Source: Arthrobacter bussei (GTDB lineage Bacteria > Actinomycetota > Actinomycetes > Actinomycetales > Micrococcaceae). From it: a stretch of 64,000 nt of DNA. A program made the position numbers and the translations under genes. Positions 8,002 through 44,269 of this stretch are shown here, piece by piece (the stretch's first letter is position 1; the number at the start of each line of letters is the position of its first letter). The notes under the pieces were generated by a model. The model was not told the DNA's origin and did not search any database. It was given only the letters and a program-made list of their open reading frames with translations. The stretch spans positions 1 to 64,000 of the forward strand of contig NZ_VJXX01000002.1 of assembly GCF_009377195.2 (NCBI RefSeq), given 5' to 3'.

Positions 8002-9411
8002 TTAGCTGATCTGGTGGAGGGTGTGGCCGATGATGCGGGCGGCTTCTGGGTAGGCGCCGGGGTTGGGGCCGGAGTAGTTGAGGCGGACGTAGGGGCCGGT
8101 GGGCTCGGCGGGGAACCATTCGGTGCCGGGTGCGACAAGGACGTTGTGTGTTTCGCATTCCCGGATGAACGCGGTGAGGTCGGTGCTCTCGGGCAGTCTC
8201 AGCCAGAGGTTCAGACCGCCTGGCGGGATCAGGGTGAGGTGCGCCGATGGTGCGTGCTGGGTGAGGCTGGTGATGAGCAGGTCCCGGCGGGAAAGTAGCT
8301 GGTGGCGGAGCCCGCGGAGGTGACTCTGCCACCCGGGGTGGGTGACGATGTCCAGGGCGGCGGTTTGCAGGATTCCGCTGACGTACATGGACGCTGCCGC
8401 ACGGTCCGCGAGAATCCGGTCCCGTGCAGGTCCGCGGGCGATGATCGCGGCGACCCTGAGCGCCGGGGAGACGCTTTTGGTGAGGGAACGGATGTAGACG
8501 ACGTGTCCGTTGTCGTCCTGGGCTGCTACCGGGGTGGGATTCGTGGTGATCCCGAAGTCGTGGGCCCAGTCGTCCTCGACGAGGAACGCCCCATATGTTC
8601 TGACGACGTCGAGGATCTGCTGCGCGGTGGTAGCTGACCATTGGGTCCCGGTGGGGTTGGCGTAGTTCGGTTGGGCGTAGAACGCCCTAGCACCGGTTTC
8701 CTCGAACGCCCGTGCGACATGGTCCGGGTCAGGGCCGGACGGGCCGGACGCGATAGGGACCAGGCGGACGCCGGCTTGTGTTGCGGCGAGGATCGCACCC
8801 CAGTACGAGGGGGACTCGATAAGCAGCGGCCTACCGCCTGTGACCAGGGCACGGAAGATGGAACTGAGCCCGCTCTGGCTACCCGGGAGCACGATCACAT
8901 CACTGGCCTGGGGTGCTGTGATACCAGTGGGGGTGGCGGAGGCGAGTTCAGCGGCGAACCACGCCTGCAACTCCGGTATCCCGGCGATGGGTGAGCGGGT
9001 GAGCGCGGTATCGCTGCGGCCCGCTCGAGCAAGGGCGGCACGGACCAGGCGTTCGGGCAACAGTTCCCGGTCCGGGTACCCACCATGCAGGGCGATCGCG
9101 TCAACCGAGGCGGCACGCATGGTTGCCGGCTCCGAAGACAGGCGGTTGCGCGGAGACCCCAGCGCCCCGGTCTGCCACCCGTAGTCAGAGGGTCTCGCGG
9201 TGCGCACAGCACGGACGAACGTCCCTACCCCCGGTCTGCTCTCGATCAGTCCCTGCCCGGTCAAGATGCGTAATGCCTTCTGCACGGTGACCGGGCTCGC
9301 CTCGTACCGGGCCACCAGGGATCGGGTTGAGGGAAGTTTCGCACCAGCCGGAGCCGCTGCGATCCACGTTTGGAGGTCGGCCACGATCCTCGTGCTGCTA
9401 TCGTTGGTCAT
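8002..9411 (-). CDS. MocR-type GntR/aminotransferase transcriptional regulator
   Basis: 469 residues. The N-terminal winged helix (residues about 5-68: AKLPSTRSLVARYEASPVTV then VGTFV) is GntR-like. The remaining 380 residues are a fold-type I PLP-dependent aminotransferase domain: LPGSQSGLSSIFRAL, AQPNYANPTG, VEDDWAHDFG and the PLP-binding lysine in RSLTKSVSPALRVA. MocR proteins use PLP or an amino acid as ligand and usually control the divergent gene. Here that gene is an EamA transporter whose start codon region overlaps, so it is the likely target. Confidence 0.88.
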   Translation of the reverse strand: MTNDSSTRIVADLQTWIAAAPAGAKLPSTRSLVARYEASPVTVQKALRILTGQGLIESRPGVGTFVRAVRTARPSDYGWQTGALGSPRNRLSSEPATMRAASVDAIALHGGYPDRELLPERLVRAALARAGRSDTALTRSPIAGIPELQAWFAAELASATPTGITAPQASDVIVLPGSQSGLSSIFRALVTGGRPLLIESPSYWGAILAATQAGVRLVPIASGPSGPDPDHVARAFEETGARAFYAQPNYANPTGTQWSATTAQQILDVVRTYGAFLVEDDWAHDFGITTNPTPVAAQDDNGHVVYIRSLTKSVSPALRVAAIIARGPARDRILADRAAASMYVSGILQTAALDIVTHPGWQSHLRGLRHQLLSRRDLLITSLTQHAPSAHLTLIPPGGLNLWLRLPESTDLTAFIRECETHNVLVAPGTEWFPAEPTGPYVRLNYSGPNPGAYPEAARIIGHTLHQIS

Positions 9412-9422
9412 GAATCCACATA

Positions 9423-9432
9423 GTAGCGCTAC
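9423..9432. promoter_or_regulatory. Palindromic operator candidate between MocR and EamA genes
   Basis: GTAGCGCTAC is a perfect 10-bp palindrome in the 34-base gap between the MocR start (9411) and the preferred EamA start (9446). With so little space, one site could repress both promoters. It is a candidate operator only; no binding data are implied. Confidence 0.4.
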
Positions 9433-9445
9433 CCTGGAAACATCG

Positions 9446-10348
9446 ATGCCGCTATCGCCTTCCCGGGCGGGACTGGCCTGGGGTTTCCTCGGTGTCCTCG
9501 CATTCTCCTTCACCGTGCCGTTCACCCGGGTCGCGGTCGGCGGACTGTCGCCCCTGTTCATCGGCTCGGGTCGGGCCGTGATCGCCGCGACCTTAGCCAT
9601 CGCAGCTCTGTCCCTGACCCGGCAACGATTCCCCGCCGGAGTCCAGTGGGTGCGCCTGGCCGTGGTCGGCGGCGGTATCGTCATCGGCTTCCCGCTGTTG
9701 ACCTCGTATGCCCTGACCACCGCACCAGCCAGCCACGGGGCCGTGGTCATCGCACTGCTGCCGGCGGCGACCGCTGTCATGGCCGTGATCCGCGGTAAGG
9801 AGCGACCACCGGTGTCCTTCTGGGTGACGGCGGGTATGGGTGCCGTCGTCGCTGTCGGATTCGCCGCCCTGCAAGGCGGCGGCCTCACCCACCTGACAGC
9901 CTCGGACCTGTTGCTGTTTGCCGCCGTCCTCGCTGCTGCCATCGGGTACGCCGAAGGCGGTCTCCTCGCCCGTGAACTCGGCGCTTGGCAAACCGTGTCC
10001 TGGGCCCTCGTCATCGCGTCCCCGATCATGCTCGCCCTGACCATCACTGCCGTCGCACAACAACCGCCCAATGGCACTCCGACCGAGTGGGCTGCATTCG
10101 CCTACCTCGCGGTCGTCAGCATGTTCCTCGGCTTCTTCGCCTGGTACCGGGGACTCGCGATCGGGCCCATGGCGCAGGTCAGCCAAGTCCAACTCACCCA
10201 ACCCGTCCTCAGCATCCTCTGGGCAGTCTTCCTGCTGGGCGAGCACCTCACGGCTACCACCGTCATCGGAGGGATAGCCGTCATCGCCTGCGCCGGTGTC
10301 GCGGTACGGACACGACTCAACCGCCCCAAGCCAGCGTCCCGCCCATGA
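9446..10348 (+). CDS. EamA/DMT-family exporter
   Basis: 300 residues with ten predicted hydrophobic helices arranged as two EamA repeats (first from GLAWGFLGVLAFSFTVPFTR; second from ASDLLLFAAVLAAAIGYAEG). The second repeat contains YLAVVSMFLGFFAWYRGLA and QLTQPVLSILWAVFLLGE, which are family hallmarks. Such proteins export amino acids or metabolites. ATG 9446 is preferred; another in-frame ATG at 9410 overlaps the MocR start codon. The divergent MocR regulator suggests control by PLP or amino-acid status. Confidence 0.85.
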   Translation: MPLSPSRAGLAWGFLGVLAFSFTVPFTRVAVGGLSPLFIGSGRAVIAATLAIAALSLTRQRFPAGVQWVRLAVVGGGIVIGFPLLTSYALTTAPASHGAVVIALLPAATAVMAVIRGKERPPVSFWVTAGMGAVVAVGFAALQGGGLTHLTASDLLLFAAVLAAAIGYAEGGLLARELGAWQTVSWALVIASPIMLALTITAVAQQPPNGTPTEWAAFAYLAVVSMFLGFFAWYRGLAIGPMAQVSQVQLTQPVLSILWAVFLLGEHLTATTVIGGIAVIACAGVAVRTRLNRPKPASRP

Positions 10349-11229: not shown

Positions 11230-11784
11230 GTGGCTAGTGCCGGAAACCGCGTGGTGGCGATCGTCTTCATCGCAGTGGGGCTGATTGCCATTGCTGCAGC
11301 CCCGTTTCTGTTTATGCCCGCACTAGTTGCGGGTTCGTGGATCTTCGCGTTGAGACTGAGAACTTCGCATCCCGGCTACTCCCGTGCCTGGTGGTGCGCC
11401 GGGCTAGCAGCTGGTTTGCTCGCAGCGGCGATAGGCGCCACCATTTCCGTGGCACCTCAACTGCTCGTGGCCGGGCTTCTGCTTTTGGGTTTCATCGCCT
11501 ACGCGGCGTCTGTGGTCCTCTTCGGCCAGGCATGGAGTCAGGGAAGCGACAGCCCGACTGCTGCTTGGGTCATAACAGTGTCGTTCGGGCTCGTGCCTGT
11601 ACTGGGGGTCGCGCTGATGGCAGCATTCGGGCGCGGCATCGCACTGGCTGACGCAGGACAATCCTCCTGGGTGATCGACACCCTGTTCCTGGCAGGACTT
11701 GCCGGCGTACCCACGTTTTTCCTGATAGGGCTGATAGCCCTCTCGAGGATGCAAACCCGTCGTGCGACTTCACTTGCCCCGTAG
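11230..11784 (+). CDS. Hypothetical membrane protein, 184 aa
   Basis: 184 residues with five or six hydrophobic helices (for example VVAIVFIAVGLIAIAAAPFL at the N-terminus and FLAGLAGVPTFFLIGLIALS near the C-terminus). No recognised motif. GTG start with ggggga upstream. Its stop codon TAG lies inside the 5' arm of the hairpin at 11,778-11,801, so that hairpin may act on the mRNA 3' end. Confidence 0.6.
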   Translation: MASAGNRVVAIVFIAVGLIAIAAAPFLFMPALVAGSWIFALRLRTSHPGYSRAWWCAGLAAGLLAAAIGATISVAPQLLVAGLLLLGFIAYAASVVLFGQAWSQGSDSPTAAWVITVSFGLVPVLGVALMAAFGRGIALADAGQSSWVIDTLFLAGLAGVPTFFLIGLIALSRMQTRRATSLAP

Positions 11785-11801
11785 AGGGATCCTTCTACGG
11801 G
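11778..11801. repeat. Dispersed hairpin repeat, perfect 8-bp stem and GGATCC loop
   Basis: CCCGTAGA-GGGATCCT-TCTACGGG: perfect 8-bp stem with the loop GGGATCCT. The best-formed member of the dispersed family. The stop codon of the upstream gene is part of the stem. No T run follows, so it is not a standard intrinsic terminator. Confidence 0.6.
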
Positions 11802-11834
11802 CCACCTTCTAGAGGCCAAGGGCTAGGGTGACTC

Positions 11835-12416
11835 ATGACAACCATCGTTCGGGCACCAGGAAACTTAGTAGTTGCGACCATCGAGAGGGTAGATGTTCGC
11901 TTCGCGGGGGTCGACGTCACGAAAGCTCCCCTCCACGTGGACGTTCCCTCAGGCACCCCCTGCGTAGTTGTCTATCTCAGCGCCGTGCGAGGGTACGAGA
12001 CGGTAAGTCATGACGCGGAAATGGCTCGAACCCGAAGCCGTGAGGACCTTGCGGCAGAAGCTGAGAAAGCTCAAAAGGACGGACCTCCCCAGTTGAGCAA
12101 TTTCGACAGAGTGGGCGTCACCATTACGGACGACGAGGGTACTCAGTACGAGCCGTCCGCGTTCCGAATGGTGGGTGACGGTCTTGGTTGGGATGACATG
12201 TGCGTCTACACGCCGGCGCCACCTTCAGCAGCCGCGATTCTGCACTTGGACTTCACGGTCGATGGGGAGTCCACAAACAGCGGCTGCGACGTAGCCCTAT
12301 CTCCTGCTGAGGGATCCTCAGTGAAACGGACGGATGCCAGATTTAGCCGTCCTTCGGACGAGGCATATCGCTGGGCAACCCGAGATCCCATAGCGTCAGA
12401 GCTTTGGAGAGCTTGA
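11835..12416 (+). CDS. Hypothetical protein, 193 aa
   Basis: Soluble protein rich in beta-type segments (NLVVATIERVDVRFAGVDVT, PCVVVYLSAVRG) with a charged helical insert (ARTRSREDLAAEAEKAQKDG). I do not recognise the family. ATG at 11,835. The next gene starts 15 bases after its stop with a good ribosome binding site, so the two are probably cotranscribed. Confidence 0.55.
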   Translation: MTTIVRAPGNLVVATIERVDVRFAGVDVTKAPLHVDVPSGTPCVVVYLSAVRGYETVSHDAEMARTRSREDLAAEAEKAQKDGPPQLSNFDRVGVTITDDEGTQYEPSAFRMVGDGLGWDDMCVYTPAPPSAAAILHLDFTVDGESTNSGCDVALSPAEGSSVKRTDARFSRPSDEAYRWATRDPIASELWRA

Positions 12417-18503: not shown

Positions 18504-19367
18504 CGGTGGGCTGACCCGGTCGGGCGGTCTTCACTGAATGTCGAGGCAGTCGTTGATGATCCACCAGACACCGTCGAGGGTGTACCCGCGGTCGTGGTCC
18601 TGGCTGAGCGTGTGCGCTCGGACTGCTCGCATGGCAATACCTGCGTGCGCCCAGTCATCGACCGTGGCATTCCGATCGTCAACGTACCGGTTCCACAGGT
18701 CATCGTGCTGCTCCTTTGGTAGGCGCACCATCGCACCGTAGGGTCCCCGGAAATCATCGACCGGGCCCTCGAACCGGACGGTCGCGAAACCCAGCCGGGC
18801 TTCAGCCGAGAGCAACCTCAAACCGCTCAGACTCGGACAACGCGCAAACGCCCGCTCGATAGCCTGCACATACTCCTCAGACCGCAGTGATGTACTGCGT
18901 CCTCTCACATCCCCCATGACAAGAAGTCTCCCATTCCCGCCGCCAGGCACCCCGGATGCAGGAGTGCCTGCGCGCAAGGTCCAAGGTCGGTGTCCTTCAC
19001 CCCTGAGGGCACTCCCTTCGCTGCCACTGCTGCATGGTCGCCTGGTCGGGGCTTGTGCTGAGCGCACGTGGTCAGGAGGCCGGCCGATCAGGGTTTGCTG
19101 TAGGGGGCGCGGTGCCTTCGGCAGATATCGTCGCACAGCTCGTTGACCGACTACGAGAGCATGTCGCGGGGTGAGGACCGAGGTCGCCGAGCGCGGCACG
19201 ATCCATGTCACAACCACGCGATGAGAAGACGGGGGCAGACACCAATGTATCTACAGATCTACAAACCGACATGTGTAGGGCGCCGTTGCGCGTGTACCAC
19301 TGCTCACGCGCCCCGCAAGGTGGGGCTCACCTACAGGTGGACAGCTCTGGGCTCCACCCGCCCACGA
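18504..19367. repeat. Duplicated segment, copy 1 (internally deleted)
   Basis: Bases 18,504-18,922 are identical by eye to 30,754-31,172. 18,923 to about 19,173 matches 31,173 to about 31,423 at lower identity. From about 19,174 the match jumps to about 33,178-33,370, the 3' end of the RibD-like gene and its downstream repeat. Copy 1 therefore lacks about 1.75 kb (31,424-33,177) that copy 2 keeps. Apart from the gene at 18,531-18,917 the segment (18,918-19,429) contains no intact gene. Confidence 0.85.
18531..18917 (-). CDS. Hypothetical protein, duplicated (copy 1)
   Basis: 128 residues (MGDVRGRSTSLRSEEYVQAI... ending in WWIINDCLDIQ), identical to the protein at 30,781-31,167. Soluble and helical with one conserved-looking DDFRGPYGAMVRLPKEQHDD segment. 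Family not recognised. The complete identity of both copies while their upstream flanks have diverged argues for recent gene conversion, or for duplication followed by selection. Confidence 0.65.
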   Translation of the reverse strand: MGDVRGRSTSLRSEEYVQAIERAFARCPSLSGLRLLSAEARLGFATVRFEGPVDDFRGPYGAMVRLPKEQHDDLWNRYVDDRNATVDDWAHAGIAMRAVRAHTLSQDHDRGYTLDGVWWIINDCLDIQ

Positions 19368-28406: not shown

Positions 28407-28614
28407 TAACGGTCACCCCCTCTCTTGAACCCACACTGACGCGCCCGCACACCGTCTCGGGTCCATCTCTGATTGGTTTCTGCGCCGCACGGGAGGAAAA
28501 CTGGCCCTGGGAGTCACCCACAGGTGGACGACTTTGAGCCCTACCCTTCTGACTCCACTCGCCCACAGGTGAATGACCTGCCCATCACCCGAGACGTAGG
28601 GAGGGTCCCTGCCG
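28407..28614. other. Intergenic region with dispersed 64-bp repeat (28,514-28,578)
   Basis: Contains one copy of the repeat whose halves begin CCCACAGGTGG and CCCACAGGTGA, also found at 33,335, 44,060 and, shortened, at 19,327. No coding sequence is seen here. Confidence 0.5.
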
Positions 28615-30741: not shown

Positions 30742-30780
30742 GTACAGAACTGACGGTGGGCTGACCCGGTCGGGCGGTCT

Positions 30781-31167
30781 TCACTGAATGTCGAGGCAGT
30801 CGTTGATGATCCACCAGACACCGTCGAGGGTGTACCCGCGGTCGTGGTCCTGGCTGAGCGTGTGCGCTCGGACTGCTCGCATGGCAATACCTGCGTGCGC
30901 CCAGTCATCGACCGTGGCATTCCGATCGTCAACGTACCGGTTCCACAGGTCATCGTGCTGCTCCTTTGGTAGGCGCACCATCGCACCGTAGGGTCCCCGG
31001 AAATCATCGACCGGGCCCTCGAACCGGACGGTCGCGAAACCCAGCCGGGCTTCAGCCGAGAGCAACCTCAAACCGCTCAGACTCGGACAACGCGCAAACG
31101 CCCGCTCGATAGCCTGCACATACTCCTCAGACCGCAGTGATGTACTGCGTCCTCTCACATCCCCCAT
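30781..31167 (-). CDS. Hypothetical protein, duplicated (copy 2)
   Basis: 128 residues identical to the product of 18,531-18,917. The stretch 30,754-31,172 shows no difference by eye from copy 1. Here it faces the 180-residue membrane protein gene. Family not recognised. Confidence 0.65.
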   Translation of the reverse strand: MGDVRGRSTSLRSEEYVQAIERAFARCPSLSGLRLLSAEARLGFATVRFEGPVDDFRGPYGAMVRLPKEQHDDLWNRYVDDRNATVDDWAHAGIAMRAVRAHTLSQDHDRGYTLDGVWWIINDCLDIQ

Positions 31168-31336
31168 GACAACAAGTTTCCCACCCTTGCGCGCAGGCAC
31201 CCCGGATGCAGGAGTGCCTGCGCGAAGGTCCAAGGTCGGTGTCCTTCACCCCTGAGGGCACTCCCTTCGCTGCCACTGCTGCATGGTCGCCTGGTCGGGG
31301 CTTGTGCTGAGCGCACGTGGTCAGGAGGCTGGCCGA

Positions 31337-31585
31337 TCAGGGTTTGCTGTAGGGGGCGCGGGGGCTGCGGCAGATATCGTCGTACATCTCGTTGACCGAT
31401 TGCGAGAGCATGTCGCGGTCGACGGCTGGCAGGTGAGTGAGTCCGTGGAGGTAGGCGTTGACCTCGAACTCGTCCATGCTGCCGCCCATGCTCAGGTAGT
31501 ACAGCCACAGCTCACCAACAGTGAACCCCGCACGTTGTAGGGCGTCGAAGGTTGCACTGTGCTGGTTTTCGTCAGCGGTACTCAC
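31337..31585 (-). CDS. Hypothetical protein, 82 aa
   Basis: Small acidic protein (MSTADENQHSATFDALQRAG, VGELWLYYLSMGGSMDEFEV) ending MYDDICRSPRAPYSKP. Helical; pattern consistent with small hypothetical proteins of actinobacteria. Copy 1 of the duplicated region keeps only its last codons (near 19,090-19,170). About 290 bases of apparently non-coding DNA follow upstream, to 31,879. Confidence 0.5.
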   Translation of the reverse strand: MSTADENQHSATFDALQRAGFTVGELWLYYLSMGGSMDEFEVNAYLHGLTHLPAVDRDMLSQSVNEMYDDICRSPRAPYSKP

Positions 31586-33230: not shown

Positions 33231-33866
33231 ACACGACGGGGTGCAAATCTCTATACATCTACAGATCTACAAACCAACATTTGTAGGGCGCCCATGCGCT
33301 TGTACAATTGCTCACGCGCCCCGCGAGATGGGGCTCACCCACAGGTGGATGGCTTTGAGCTCACCCTTCGGGCTCCACCCGCCCACAGGTGGATGACCCA
33401 ATGCCAGCCTTCAACGCCTTCGAAAGCCTCATCGGCCGTGCCGGATCAACCAGATCGTGCTGTTCATGACCATGCTGGTAGGAGGCTGTGCACGCCTACC
33501 GCTCGCTCGAGGTGATCTTTCGAGTGTCGGTGAGGTGGTGGGTGTGTGCAGGCAGGCTCCTGGTTCCTGCTGTCCAGGTGTGTGCGGGACAAGCAGCGGA
33601 GCGTGGGGAGCTTGTGCCGTGCACAAGTGGTCAAGAGGCGCGCCAACTCCTTCACCCCTGTCGACCAGCCCCGACCGATTGAGCACCGGTGGGTTTTGCT
33701 AGACAGCTGATTCCTCAGAGGAAGTGAAGGACTTCTCGTACAGTGGCGTGAGGGGCGACGGAGGAGACACGAGGTTGGCATGACGTATCGGGAACGCTAG
33801 ATCAGAGCGATCGCACGCACGCCCAAGAAGCTGTTCGGCAGGGGGCACGATTGGACGTATGCCCTT
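33231..33866. other. Non-coding stretch with hairpin and 64-bp repeat
   Basis: No gene supported. It contains CTACAAA-CCAACA-TTTGTAG (33,267-33,286, perfect 7-bp stem, decayed in copy 1), the 64-bp repeat at 33,335-33,398, and a CTTGTGC-CGT-GCACAAG hairpin near 33,612-33,628. The sequence around 33,610-33,690 is distantly like 19,030-19,100. Confidence 0.5.
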
Positions 33867-34485: not shown

Positions 34486-34517
34486 CGTTGCGTATGGGTA
34501 CACCCCGACGCAATGCG
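34486..34517. repeat. Imperfect 32-bp palindrome, relative of the one at 36,808
   Basis: Reads CGTTGCGTATGGGTA / CACCCCGACGCAATGC; about three quarters of positions match the perfect palindrome at 36,808-36,837. It lies downstream of the MFS pump gene, as the other lies downstream of the DUF4396 gene, so the two bracket that divergent pair. Confidence 0.5.
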
Positions 34518-34603
34518 ATCCGCGCACGGTCATCCGGGTGCGGGCTCCGCAATAACCTCATTCATTAGTGCCGAGGTCGATGGAGGCGCCTCGATCTCCG
34601 AGC

Positions 34604-36121
34604 TCAGTTGTAGCTGCGGTGCTGGTCGTCGATTTGTGGGCGGACGGTGATCAGCAGGGCGACGATGAGGGCTGCGGTGGCGAGGATGATTGCTCCGCTG
34701 CTTAGGGCGGTGGTGTAGCCGTCGACGATGGCTTGGCTGGTGGTTGTTACAGCTTCAGGATCGCTCGCACTTCGGGCGTCGTAGAGCGCTGCAAGGGCGT
34801 TGGGTAGCCGGTTCTCTGTGGTGGTGATGCTGATGGTGGATAGGGCGGCGATGCCTAGGGCGACGCCGATTTGCTGGGCTGCGTTGAGCAGCGCCGAGGC
34901 GATTCCGGAGTCCTCCGGCCGGACACCGGTGACGGCGGTGAGGGTCAAGGGGACGAAGCTCAAGCCGAAGCCGACGGCAACGGCGAAGATCCCGACCATG
35001 AGGTGCTGGACGTACCCGGAATCCGGGGTGATGGTCGACAGCCAGAGAATCGCTGCGGTGGAGATGAGGATCCCGGCGACGGCGACCGTGCGGGGAGCGA
35101 ACCGGACGACGAGTTTCGAGGCGGTGCCGGCGGAGATGATGATGCCTGCGCCGAAGGGCAACCAGGCCAGGCCGGTGCGGATGGGGTCGTATTCGAGGAT
35201 GTGCTGCATGTAGAGGGTCAGCAGATAGAAGGTGCCCATGGGGCCGAAGCTGACGAACAGCATGCCGAGCTAGGAACCGGTCCGATTGCGGTCGGCGAAC
35301 AGGCGCAAGGGGAGCATCGGGTCGGCACTGCGGGATTCAATGATGACGAAGGCCGGTAGCAGAACGGCGGCCAGGGTGACTGCGATCAGTGTCAGTAGGT
35401 CGAACCAGCCTGCCTCGCCTCCGTGGATGATGGCGAAGACCAGGGCGGTGATCCCGCCGGTGCCGGTGAGGGCTCCGGGGAGGTCGAGTCGTCCGATGTG
35501 GCGGGGTGCGTCGACGAGGATGCGGGTTCCGGCGAGCAGGGCGAGGCCGATGGGGAGGTTAATGAAGAACACCCACCGCCAGCCGAGCGTGCCTTTAAGG
35601 ACCCCTCCCAGCAGTAGTCCGACGGTCACGCCGAGACCGGACATCGCCCCGTACAGGGCTAGTGCCTTGTTCCGCGCTTCCCCGGCAGGGAAGGTCGTGG
35701 TGATCAGGGCCAGTGCGTTCGGCGCAGTCAGTGCCGCTCCGAGTCCCTGGACTGCGCGGGCGGCGACGAGTACTGGTCCGGCCGGTGCGAGGCCGGCCAC
35801 TAGTGAGGACAGGGTGAACAGTCCGATGCCGATCTGTAGGATCCGACGCCGGCCGAAGAGGTCCCCGAGCCTTCCTCCGAACAGGAGCAGACCGCCGAAC
35901 GCCAGGATGTAGGCGTTGATCACCCAGGGCAGGCTCGCGGGTGTGATGCCGAGTTCGTTCTGGATCGAGGGCAGGGCTATGTTCGCGATGGAATCATCCA
36001 GGACCAACATCAGCTGAGCACTGGCGACCACCAGTAACGCCAACCCCAGGCGCCTGCTATTCACTGCGGCCGGGGCACCGGACTTTGCGCCGGTCGCTGA
36101 TGGATGGGGTTTCGCTGGCAT
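34604..36121 (-). pseudogene. DHA2-family MFS drug exporter with in-frame amber codon
   Basis: A 505-codon frame for a 14-helix EmrB/QacA-type exporter: MLVLDDSIANIALPSIQNEL, then INAYILAFGGLLLFGGRLGD and LFGRRRIL (motif A). It is interrupted by TAG at 35,270-35,272 between RNRTGS and LGMLFVSFGPMG; both sides are in the same frame, so a single nonsense change separates two halves. The 5' half is 283 residues. ATG 36,121 has an aggag ribosome binding site. The gene is divergent from a broken DUF4396 gene, with twin CsoR-type sites between them. Confidence 0.8.
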
Positions 36122-36157
36122 GACAACTCCTGAGAGGAAAGAAACGCTCCTGACTTG

Positions 36158-36202
36158 ATACCCCTAAGGGGTATTTGCTTTATTTTTTACCCCCTAGGGG
36201 TA
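36158..36202. promoter_or_regulatory. Twin CsoR/CstR-type operators TACCCC-N3-GGGGTA
   Basis: Two sites, 36,159-36,173 (spacer TAA) and 36,188-36,202 (spacer CTA), centres 29 bases apart, in the 130-base gap between the divergent MFS and DUF4396 genes. G-tract palindromes of this form are the recognition sequence of CsoR-family repressors (copper, persulfide or formaldehyde sensors). No CsoR-family gene is in the window. Confidence 0.7.
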
Positions 36203-36254
36203 TACGAGTCAAAGGGTTCGTCGTCGGCGACGCTGGCGGTTACTCGAGGTCAGG

Positions 36255-36774
36255 ATGGAGAAATCAATGAGTGGGACAGCACCAATGAGCGAACATCACG
36301 GAGGGTATGAAGGACATGCTGGGCATGGCGGGGGTGCTGGGACGTCATGGTCGATGGCAGCCATGGCGACACTGCACTGCCTGACGGGGTGCGCCATCGG
36401 CGAAGTGCTGGGCATGGTCATTGGCACCAGCCTTGGTCTGCATCATCTGGGCACGGTTGCCCTGGCGATGCGTTGGCGTTCGTCTTCGGATACGCGCTCA
36501 CTATGCGCGGGGTCCTGCGGGCCGGTGTGAGTTGGCGCAGCGCGGTGAAGGTCGCCCTCGCAGCCGACACCATTTCGATCGCGGTGATGGAGATCACAGA
36601 CAACACCGCGATGCTGACTATCCCAGGCGCAATGGACGCCGGCGTTGCGTCCATCCTGTTCTGGCCGCCCTCGCGGCGTCCCTGGCACTAGCCTTCCTCA
36701 TCACAACGCCGGTGAACCGGTGGCTCATCAGCCGAGGCAAAGGTCACGCCGTAGTTCACCAATACCATCACTGA
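36255..36774 (+). pseudogene. DUF4396 membrane protein, two frameshifts
   Basis: The His-rich N-terminus (MSEHHGGYEGHAGHGGG), ATLHCLTGCAIGEVLGMVIG and GTVALAM are in one frame. ALAFVFGYALTMRGVLRAGV through AMDAGVASILFW is in a second frame. SLALAFLITTPVNRWLISRG with a C-terminal VHQYHH is in a third. Together they make a complete DUF4396 protein, a membrane family with conserved Cys and His residues often associated with copper or sulfur stress. Two indels, near 36,460 and 36,665, inactivate it. Confidence 0.8.
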
Positions 36775-36807
36775 TGGTTGATACAGGCCTCACTCGGACG
36801 TAGAGCA

Positions 36808-36837
36808 TGTTGCGTTGGGGTATACCCCAACGCAACA
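36808..36837. repeat. Perfect 30-bp palindrome
   Basis: TGTTGCGTTGGGGTA and its reverse complement without any spacer. Located 34 bases after the DUF4396 pseudogene. Core GGGGTATACCCC is an inside-out version of the TACCCC-N3-GGGGTA operators upstream. Could be an operator, a cruciform or a recombination site; no T run suggests a terminator. Confidence 0.6.
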
Positions 36838-36975
36838 GCGCATCGGCCCTGAAAAAGCGTTGCTTCAGGGTCCATTCGTGGCTTTCGCATCAGGAGTGAT
36901 CAACGGTCTAGACATGACGCAACGCTTGTGTGTGGGTCGTGGGGGAGTGCTTCGTTGTCAGTGGCCGCTTGTACA

Positions 36976-43927: not shown

Positions 43928-44269
43928 AACGTATTCGCTACACGCAGCTGCGACACCGCGAAACAGCACGTAGAAGCTCCTTTCGCATAGTAATACTCAG
44001 TGCTAGAATGTACGTTTCACTTCTGACCGCCAAGAACGGGTTCCGCTACAAGCGGCAGCTCACCCACAGTGGACGGCTTTGAGCTCCATCCTTCGGGCTC
44101 CACCCGCCCACAGGTGCATGACCAACACCACGCCCACGGCTGAGCCCAACCCTCGTGGCTCTATTGCCACTATTAGTCCTATGAGCCCTAAGTCGGACCA
44201 GCTCCTGCTCCTGCTGTACGCAACCACCAGGAAGCCCAGCCCAGATGCATGCCGTCGGAGCCTCACCCG
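43928..44269. other. Intergenic, with 64-bp repeat (44,060-44,123)
   Basis: Holds the AA target duplication of the IS30 element (43,928-43,929) and a copy of the dispersed CCCACAGGTG repeat. A TAGAAT box near 44,004 could be a promoter -10. No gene is seen. Confidence 0.5.

Follow-up and report, generated by a model that had tools for sequence, protein, structure and literature searches.

The window analysed here, a stretch of 64,000 nucleotides of Arthrobacter bussei DNA that forms part of a 550-kb contig (C18) in a 3.63-Mb assembly (3,628,888 bp), contains a divergent pair of genes, for an MFS exporter and for a DUF4396 protein, with two short operator-like sites between the genes and a palindrome on the outer side of each gene. 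The question raised by this arrangement is whether the four sites belong to one system, as was proposed in a sequence-only reading of the locus, or whether the palindromes have to be understood independently of the genes that they enclose. The answer is that the former proposal joined two unrelated systems. Comparison of sequences makes it very probable that both palindromes are resolvase crossover sites and that the gene pair is the cargo lying between them; the contents of this slot would be swapped by a resolvase supplied in trans.

The MFS gene (PF07690; 34604-36121, minus strand) is interrupted near 35270 by an in-frame stop codon, and the DUF4396 gene (PF14342; 36255-36775, plus strand) changes frame at about 36470 and again at about 36664. 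Thus, the divergent pair recognized in the sequence-only reading is present, but it had been missed that both genes are broken, and the ribbon-helix-helix (RHH) gene to their right is broken too. Unbroken MFS frames, with 85-92% amino acid identity to that of the window, occur in four relatives; in three relatives within the genus (G271, G031 and G264) both members of the divergent pair are open, the MFS frame of G079 is open and its DUF4396 gene partial, and G116 has a DUF4396 gene with no matching MFS gene. The homology of these relatives to the window pair spans at most 34634-36776. Relatives with the genes in other contexts and lacking the palindromes had been named beforehand as evidence against the reading of genes and palindromes as one module, and they are what was found: in the stretches of about 16 kb around the pair genes, a match to the resolution site (res) described below was obtained at E<=0.01 in none of the five relatives (G271, G031, G264, G079 and G116), the contig of G079 having a res, together with the gene of the resolvase TnpR-A, some 35 kb (approximately) from the pair genes. 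When the 3.1-kb locus was used as a query against plasmids, none of the 108 records retrieved spanned 80% of the query, and the 20 matches listed of these 108 hit the MFS or the DUF4396 stretch only.

The twin TACCCC-N3-GGGGTA sites between the genes are real, as had been claimed, and conserved beside the genes in relatives. Operator 1, TACCCCTAAGGGGTA, at 36159-36173, and operator 2, TACCCCCTAGGGGTA, at 36188-36202, are the sole two exact matches to this motif in the whole 3,628,888-bp assembly. Their position is kept in relatives, the two sites being 28-29 bp apart in G116, G271, G031 and G079, and represented by one exact and one degenerate copy in G264. As conserved G-tract pseudopalindromes in a promoter region they appear to be of the CsoR type, in agreement with the description of CsoR-family operators in an excerpt of PMC3902906. 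The CsoR-family gene that was expected elsewhere in the genome was also found, as a single match at E<=0.001 on contig C9, where it lies upstream of CopZ-like and copper-ATPase-like genes (named by eye) and is preceded by an operator-like sequence, ATACCCCCCGAGGGTAT. Since the twin operators are conserved beside the pair, and since the lone CsoR gene has ATACCCCCCGAGGGTAT in front of it, they are probably targets of a CsoR-family copper repressor, unrelated to the palindromes. The gene pair with its operators is ordinary, and the regulated genes are dead in the window.

The outer palindromes are equally real, the right one being perfect over 30 bp (36808-36837) and the left one (34487-34514) being symmetric at 20 of 28 positions. 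Their relation to each other also held: a single pattern allowing up to three mismatches catches both of them, along with three more places on contig C41, and the reversed control pattern gives 0 matches, while the 28-bp core of the right palindrome, at up to three mismatches, was matched in 0 of 100 shuffles of the window. The left palindrome is assigned as a solitary, degenerate site I (GTTGCGTATGGGT-AC-ACCCCGACGCAAT; 34487-34514, plus strand), which matches the site-I pattern with 0 mismatches, and the right one as site I of a res (GTTGCGTTGGGGT-AT-ACCCCAACGCAAC; 36809-36836, plus strand), with a predicted crossover at 36822-36823. The two read the same way, i.e. they are in direct orientation, and sites II and III are carried by the right site only, none being recognizable at the left one. 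For these reasons the palindromes were rejected as inverted ends of one module, and the bracketing symmetry stressed in the sequence-only reading turned out to be superficial. Indeed, the right palindrome is perfect because its central dinucleotide on the plus strand is AT, as opposed to the AC of the left site and of 44 of the 49 places with a recognizable core (the others having AG in three cases, GC in one, and AT only in the right site of the window). As the centres differ, recombination between the two sites of the window should be hindered, and the window copy of the slot may be locked. Furthermore, the palindromes have half-sites in the order GGGG..CCCC, opposite to the CCCC..GGGG of the operators; on account of this reversed order and of their absence in the five relatives examined, they were rejected as CsoR operators, with the caution that a perfect palindrome adjoining an operon need not be an operator.

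The right palindrome opens a conserved element of about 115-122 bp with two further half-palindromic boxes. Site II (33 bp; 36859-36891, plus strand) has its centre 52.5 bp from that of site I, and site III (about 25 bp; 36899-36923, plus strand, with an approximate left limit) contains GGTCTAGAC at 36905 and ends with GCAAC at 36923. The layout is, thus, a site I of 28 bp, a spacer of 22 bp and a site II of 33 bp, and the distance between the centres of sites I and II is 52.5 bp in 22 of the 27 full copies measured (49-53.5 in the other five), so that three subsites, a 28-bp site I and a fixed I-II phase, as in a res of the Tn3/gamma-delta type, are all found. The res profile matches the window at 36809-36931 with 101 bits, the window copy being among the 17 copies from which the profile was built, and the R1 model gives E 7e-26 at the same place, again with the window copy among those used for building. 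According to excerpts of PMC12217951, the tested res of SGI1 consists of a 28-bp box I, a 22-bp spacer and a 25-bp box III, with an AC centre and with box centres 51 bp apart, corresponding to five helical turns; cleavage by resolvases takes place at the 2 bp in the centre of site I, resolution of direct repeats being their normal activity, and two replicons are fused through res at low frequency. The element of the window is followed by the RHH gene (PF01402; 37007-37272, plus strand), with a stop at codon 60, of which an unbroken orthologue is found in the same order on a plasmid of Arthrobacter sp. MN05-02 (AP018698). The window res is an orphan, in that no resolvase gene is directly downstream.

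A 25-base core, searched with at most one mismatch, was present in 13 of 395 genomes of the bacterial family, all 13 belonging to the 38 of the genus and none to the 357 outside it. An exact-pattern scan of the genome contig collection gave 11 stretches, eight from named Arthrobacter and three from metagenome assemblies, two of the latter with weak sites II/III and one looking like a chance match. With the model built from 17 copies, which match by construction, the element is detected at E<=0.01 in 29 of the 38 genus genomes. At 36 of the 42 places that score E<1e-10 the neighbouring DNA has no TnpR-A gene, and 16 of the 22 genomes with such places have no TnpR-A match of at least 82% identity, some of the assemblies being fragmented.

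The resolvase to which the sites can be assigned is TnpR-A. In all six of its orthologues in the genus (82-100% identity) a res element lies directly upstream of the gene and overlaps its start; site I is retained at four of the six loci, G248 and G305 keeping the site II-III part only. Among more distant relatives on plasmids of other genera, six were picked from at least 5000 records (54-58% identity), and four of them have a match at the same position, each with an GGGTATACCC core and an AT centre, while those of Dietzia and Rhodococcus, the other two, have no res match. The protein has an N-terminal Resolvase domain (PF00239, E 1.7e-31) and a C-terminal HTH (HTH_7, PF02796, E 1.7e-9), as expected of a small serine resolvase, and matches the solved structures of DNA-invertase, Sin and gamma-delta resolvase (1gdt, E 2.4e-18). 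That TnpR-A might be part of a Tn3 transposon was considered and rejected, since a visual check of the ORFs up to 4 kb away from TnpR-A at five of its loci revealed no transposase. An orthologue is absent from the genome of A. bussei, in which the best match (47%) is a type-B resolvase; TnpR-B, a second resolvase, is 47% identical to TnpR-A.

How the two site-I copies of the window relate to what lies between them becomes apparent from comparison with A. agilis UMCV2 (NZ_CP024915.1; G342:C1). The order in the window is a left flank (L0; 33711-34505, plus strand), the MFS/DUF4396 block, res and the RHH gene. L0 is about 90% identical to the corresponding DNA of UMCV2, and the homology runs through the left half and the core of the left site I, GTTGCGTATGGGTACACCC included, and then stops. 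In the slot of UMCV2, L0 is followed by a different block of 1.06 kb, containing one long ORF with no Pfam match at E<=0.01, and then by a full res, after which comes the leader that in MN05-02 precedes the RHH gene. The bracketed block of the window extends between the two site-I centres (34500-36823; 2.3 kb). Of the discrete module put forward earlier, it stands that the block lies between two direct copies of site I, but the palindromes do not belong to the gene pair. About 390 bp of L0 is also present in G248, without the site; an empty slot, with L0 joined directly to res and the RHH gene, was not found among the 38 genus genomes. A third bracketed block, whose ORF is MFS-transporter-like by eye, is situated in G264 (contig C25) at 1.6 kb to the left of a res. 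Finally, a 2.4-kb block (X) is present in two copies on C41, 99.7% identical, and all four of its ends fall within (G)GGTACACCC cores. In one copy the right end is joined to a res-B half upstream of TnpR-B, in the other the left end is joined to a half resembling the left half of res-B; two native res-B sites were seen in genomes other than this one, and G212 has a hybrid A/B site as well. Block X would, on the basis of these junctions, have been inserted into an A-type and a B-type site I, the flanks having later been exchanged inside X.

The same mosaic structure is seen when all copies are compared. Flanks were fetched for 39 of the 42 places with E<1e-10, together with some lone site-I and resolvase loci, so that 53 site-I or res places were defined, two of them in named records, and all pairs were compared within 3 kb, after removal of 100%-identical overlaps between stretches of the same locus. 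Among these 53 places 39 pairs have a flank in common next to the site: the right flank in 34 pairs, the left flank in five and both flanks in none (33, 3 and 0, respectively, in a previous count at different thresholds). In 21 of the 34 right-side pairs the homology starts at -20 to +3 of the site-I centre. The other 13 alignments start at -23 and -27 (one each) or at +29 to +42 (11), 10 of the latter 11 involving L155 or L175, loci without a site I, and one, starting at +37, involving neither. Of the five left-side pairs only that of block X is clean, two being weak (68-72% identity over about 100 bp) and two having a partner in which a foreign end within res interrupts the right flank. As they fall into nine right-arm families, the 39 pairs do not represent 39 independent events; counting each family member with a different left flank once, about 17 independent events are obtained. 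A boundary motif was not found at the right-hand ends of these families, where unrelated sequence was seen in the 11 pairs inspected. The two A/B hybrid sites are joined at AC, and these hybrids and the flank breaks appear to agree with a crossover located at the 2-bp centre of site I. When left flanks (183 kb) and right flanks (194 kb) were searched for cores, six matches were obtained on the expected strand of the left flanks, of which only three resemble real site-I copies, against three, one and three on the other strands and sides.

It may be asked whether such mosaics need a resolvase at all. Homologous recombination within the 115-bp element, or one-ended rearrangements, might have produced them, given that the element is a repeated sequence and that some shared flanks start inside it and not at site I; the flanks of block X on C41 could also be explained if two insertions were followed by an exchange within the 2.4-kb repeat. 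However, the A/B hybrid sites have only about 8-10 bp in common at the core, and 21 of the 34 right-side starts lie around the site-I centre; this origin is very unlikely. Alternatively, the palindromes and boxes II/III could be operators or centromere-like sites, recognized by the RHH protein or by some other regulator, with no part in recombination. Such a role is favoured by the binding of RHH proteins to short repeats and by the RHH gene that comes after the element here as well as in MN05-02, with homologous DNA following also in G079 (contig C7). Yet many copies adjoin other genes or a resolvase, the spacing of the three boxes is that of res, and shared flanks break at site I, so that a regulatory or partitioning site is very improbable here.

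Lowest in probability, to the point of being barely credible, stands the original proposal, that of a copper- or persulfide-responsive module which the palindromes, as relatives of its CsoR-type operators, bracket and mark as one mobile piece. The twin operators are real, a lone CsoR gene with a similar operator does lie near copper chaperone- and ATPase-like genes, and palindromes and operators share a core of G/C runs; but the half-site order is opposite in the two, the palindromes, which have the features of resolvase sites and not of copper or persulfide operators, recur beside many unrelated genes, they are missing from the roughly 16 kb around the pair genes in all five relatives examined, and the CsoR protein of A. 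bussei, used as a query, finds no homologue in these same five stretches of about 16 kb.

If the palindromes are resolvase sites, as is strongly favoured, the slot would work as follows. TnpR-A or a related resolvase, provided in trans from plasmids, would cleave the two copies of site I at their central dinucleotide, and different site-I halves would be rejoined, which would make the DNA on the left side of a res exchangeable; events of this kind at res, driven by a plasmid-supplied resolvase, would lead to one-sided sharing of flanks. The resolvase would, in this scheme, be the maker of the junctions, and cargo would leave or enter as a circle. A more specific version, to be regarded as tentative and somewhat doubtful, is that of a gene-cassette system, in which circles of 1-2.5 kb with one site I insert to the left of an orphan res with the help of plasmid resolvases acting in trans, the MFS/DUF4396 block of the window, ORF266 of UMCV2, block X and the MFS-like block of G264 being the cassettes. 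Dispersed res would then play the role that attI and attC have in integrons, the ends of the Arthrobacter blocks being halves of site I.

Other repeats and ends are found near the sites. An end sequence of the form TGTGA(C/G)TTTTC..TGGCGGG..TTGGCGGG (class-2) begins in or at res in eight of its 12 occurrences in the fetched loci, at varying offsets (C41:8582, L150:7099, L155:3972, L169:6997, L177:7086, L178:7058, L182:4223 and L183:9420). These sequences were considered as an alternative site II and rejected, since they start at different offsets, and for the same reason they look like a transposon end; they seem to resemble those of a res-seeking transposon, although, as compared with the res-hunters Tn5053/Tn402, no tni genes were recognized by eye in the ORFs near some of the ends. 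In the window, a direct duplication of about 667 bp, 97.5% identical, occupies 18504-19169 and 30754-31418, and a repeat of roughly 66 bp with CCCACAGGTGGATG-like arms is present at 28514-28578, 33333-33398 and 44058-44123, with relatives also near several res sites in other genomes. In 2-kb steps, the G+C content of the window lies mostly in the range of 59-65% over the first 45 kb or so and of 64-73% thereafter, and the first part of the contig, therefore, looks like an island. Contigs C18 and C41 start with 127 identical bases (1-127 in both), an indication that the assembly was broken where an element is repeated. On C41 a stretch with a 158-aa ORF is duplicated (9154-9691 and 11742-12279), and a relative with 80% identity is found in the window at 11814-12319.

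The notion of resolvase 'shuffling' reportedly goes back to Kholodii in 2001. For Acinetobacter plasmids, excerpts of PMC9501444, on the CinH-RS2 system, describe a resolvase that acts at res sites of foreign origin, and plasmids that exchange DNA by way of res. The Arthrobacter sites differ from this precedent in being scattered across the chromosomes and plasmids of a single genus, and in that bracketed blocks occupy one common slot. With Tn3/gamma-delta and SGI1 resolution, as presented in the excerpts of PMC12217951, they share the layout of the boxes, the location of res upstream of the resolvase gene and the AC centre, but most strong copies (36 of 42) are away from TnpR-A and join unrelated flanks. 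The pdif modules of Acinetobacter, in the excerpted text of PMC6449649, consist of adaptive genes between short recombination sites, on plasmids and chromosomes, and were not detected in closely related genera; they depend on dif/Xer recombination, whereas the Arthrobacter sites are serine resolvase sites with accessory boxes. For Arthrobacter plasmids, excerpts of PMC6305408 name resolvases of two Tn3-family transposons and ISNCY elements and do not contain the term 'res site', and among the papers listed in literature searches none dealt with res shuffling in Arthrobacter. Resolvase shuffling and pdif modules are precedents, of which the genus-wide use of mostly orphan res looks like a new form.

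If the proposed scheme is true, a resolvase of plasmid maintenance would have been turned into a genus-wide device for gene exchange, involving chromosomes as well as plasmids, and would stand beside the Xer-driven pdif modules as their counterpart among serine recombinases. The joining of unrelated genes at one 28-bp site would also be explained, and the combination of site I with sites II/III would provide a search key for mobile blocks in actinobacteria.
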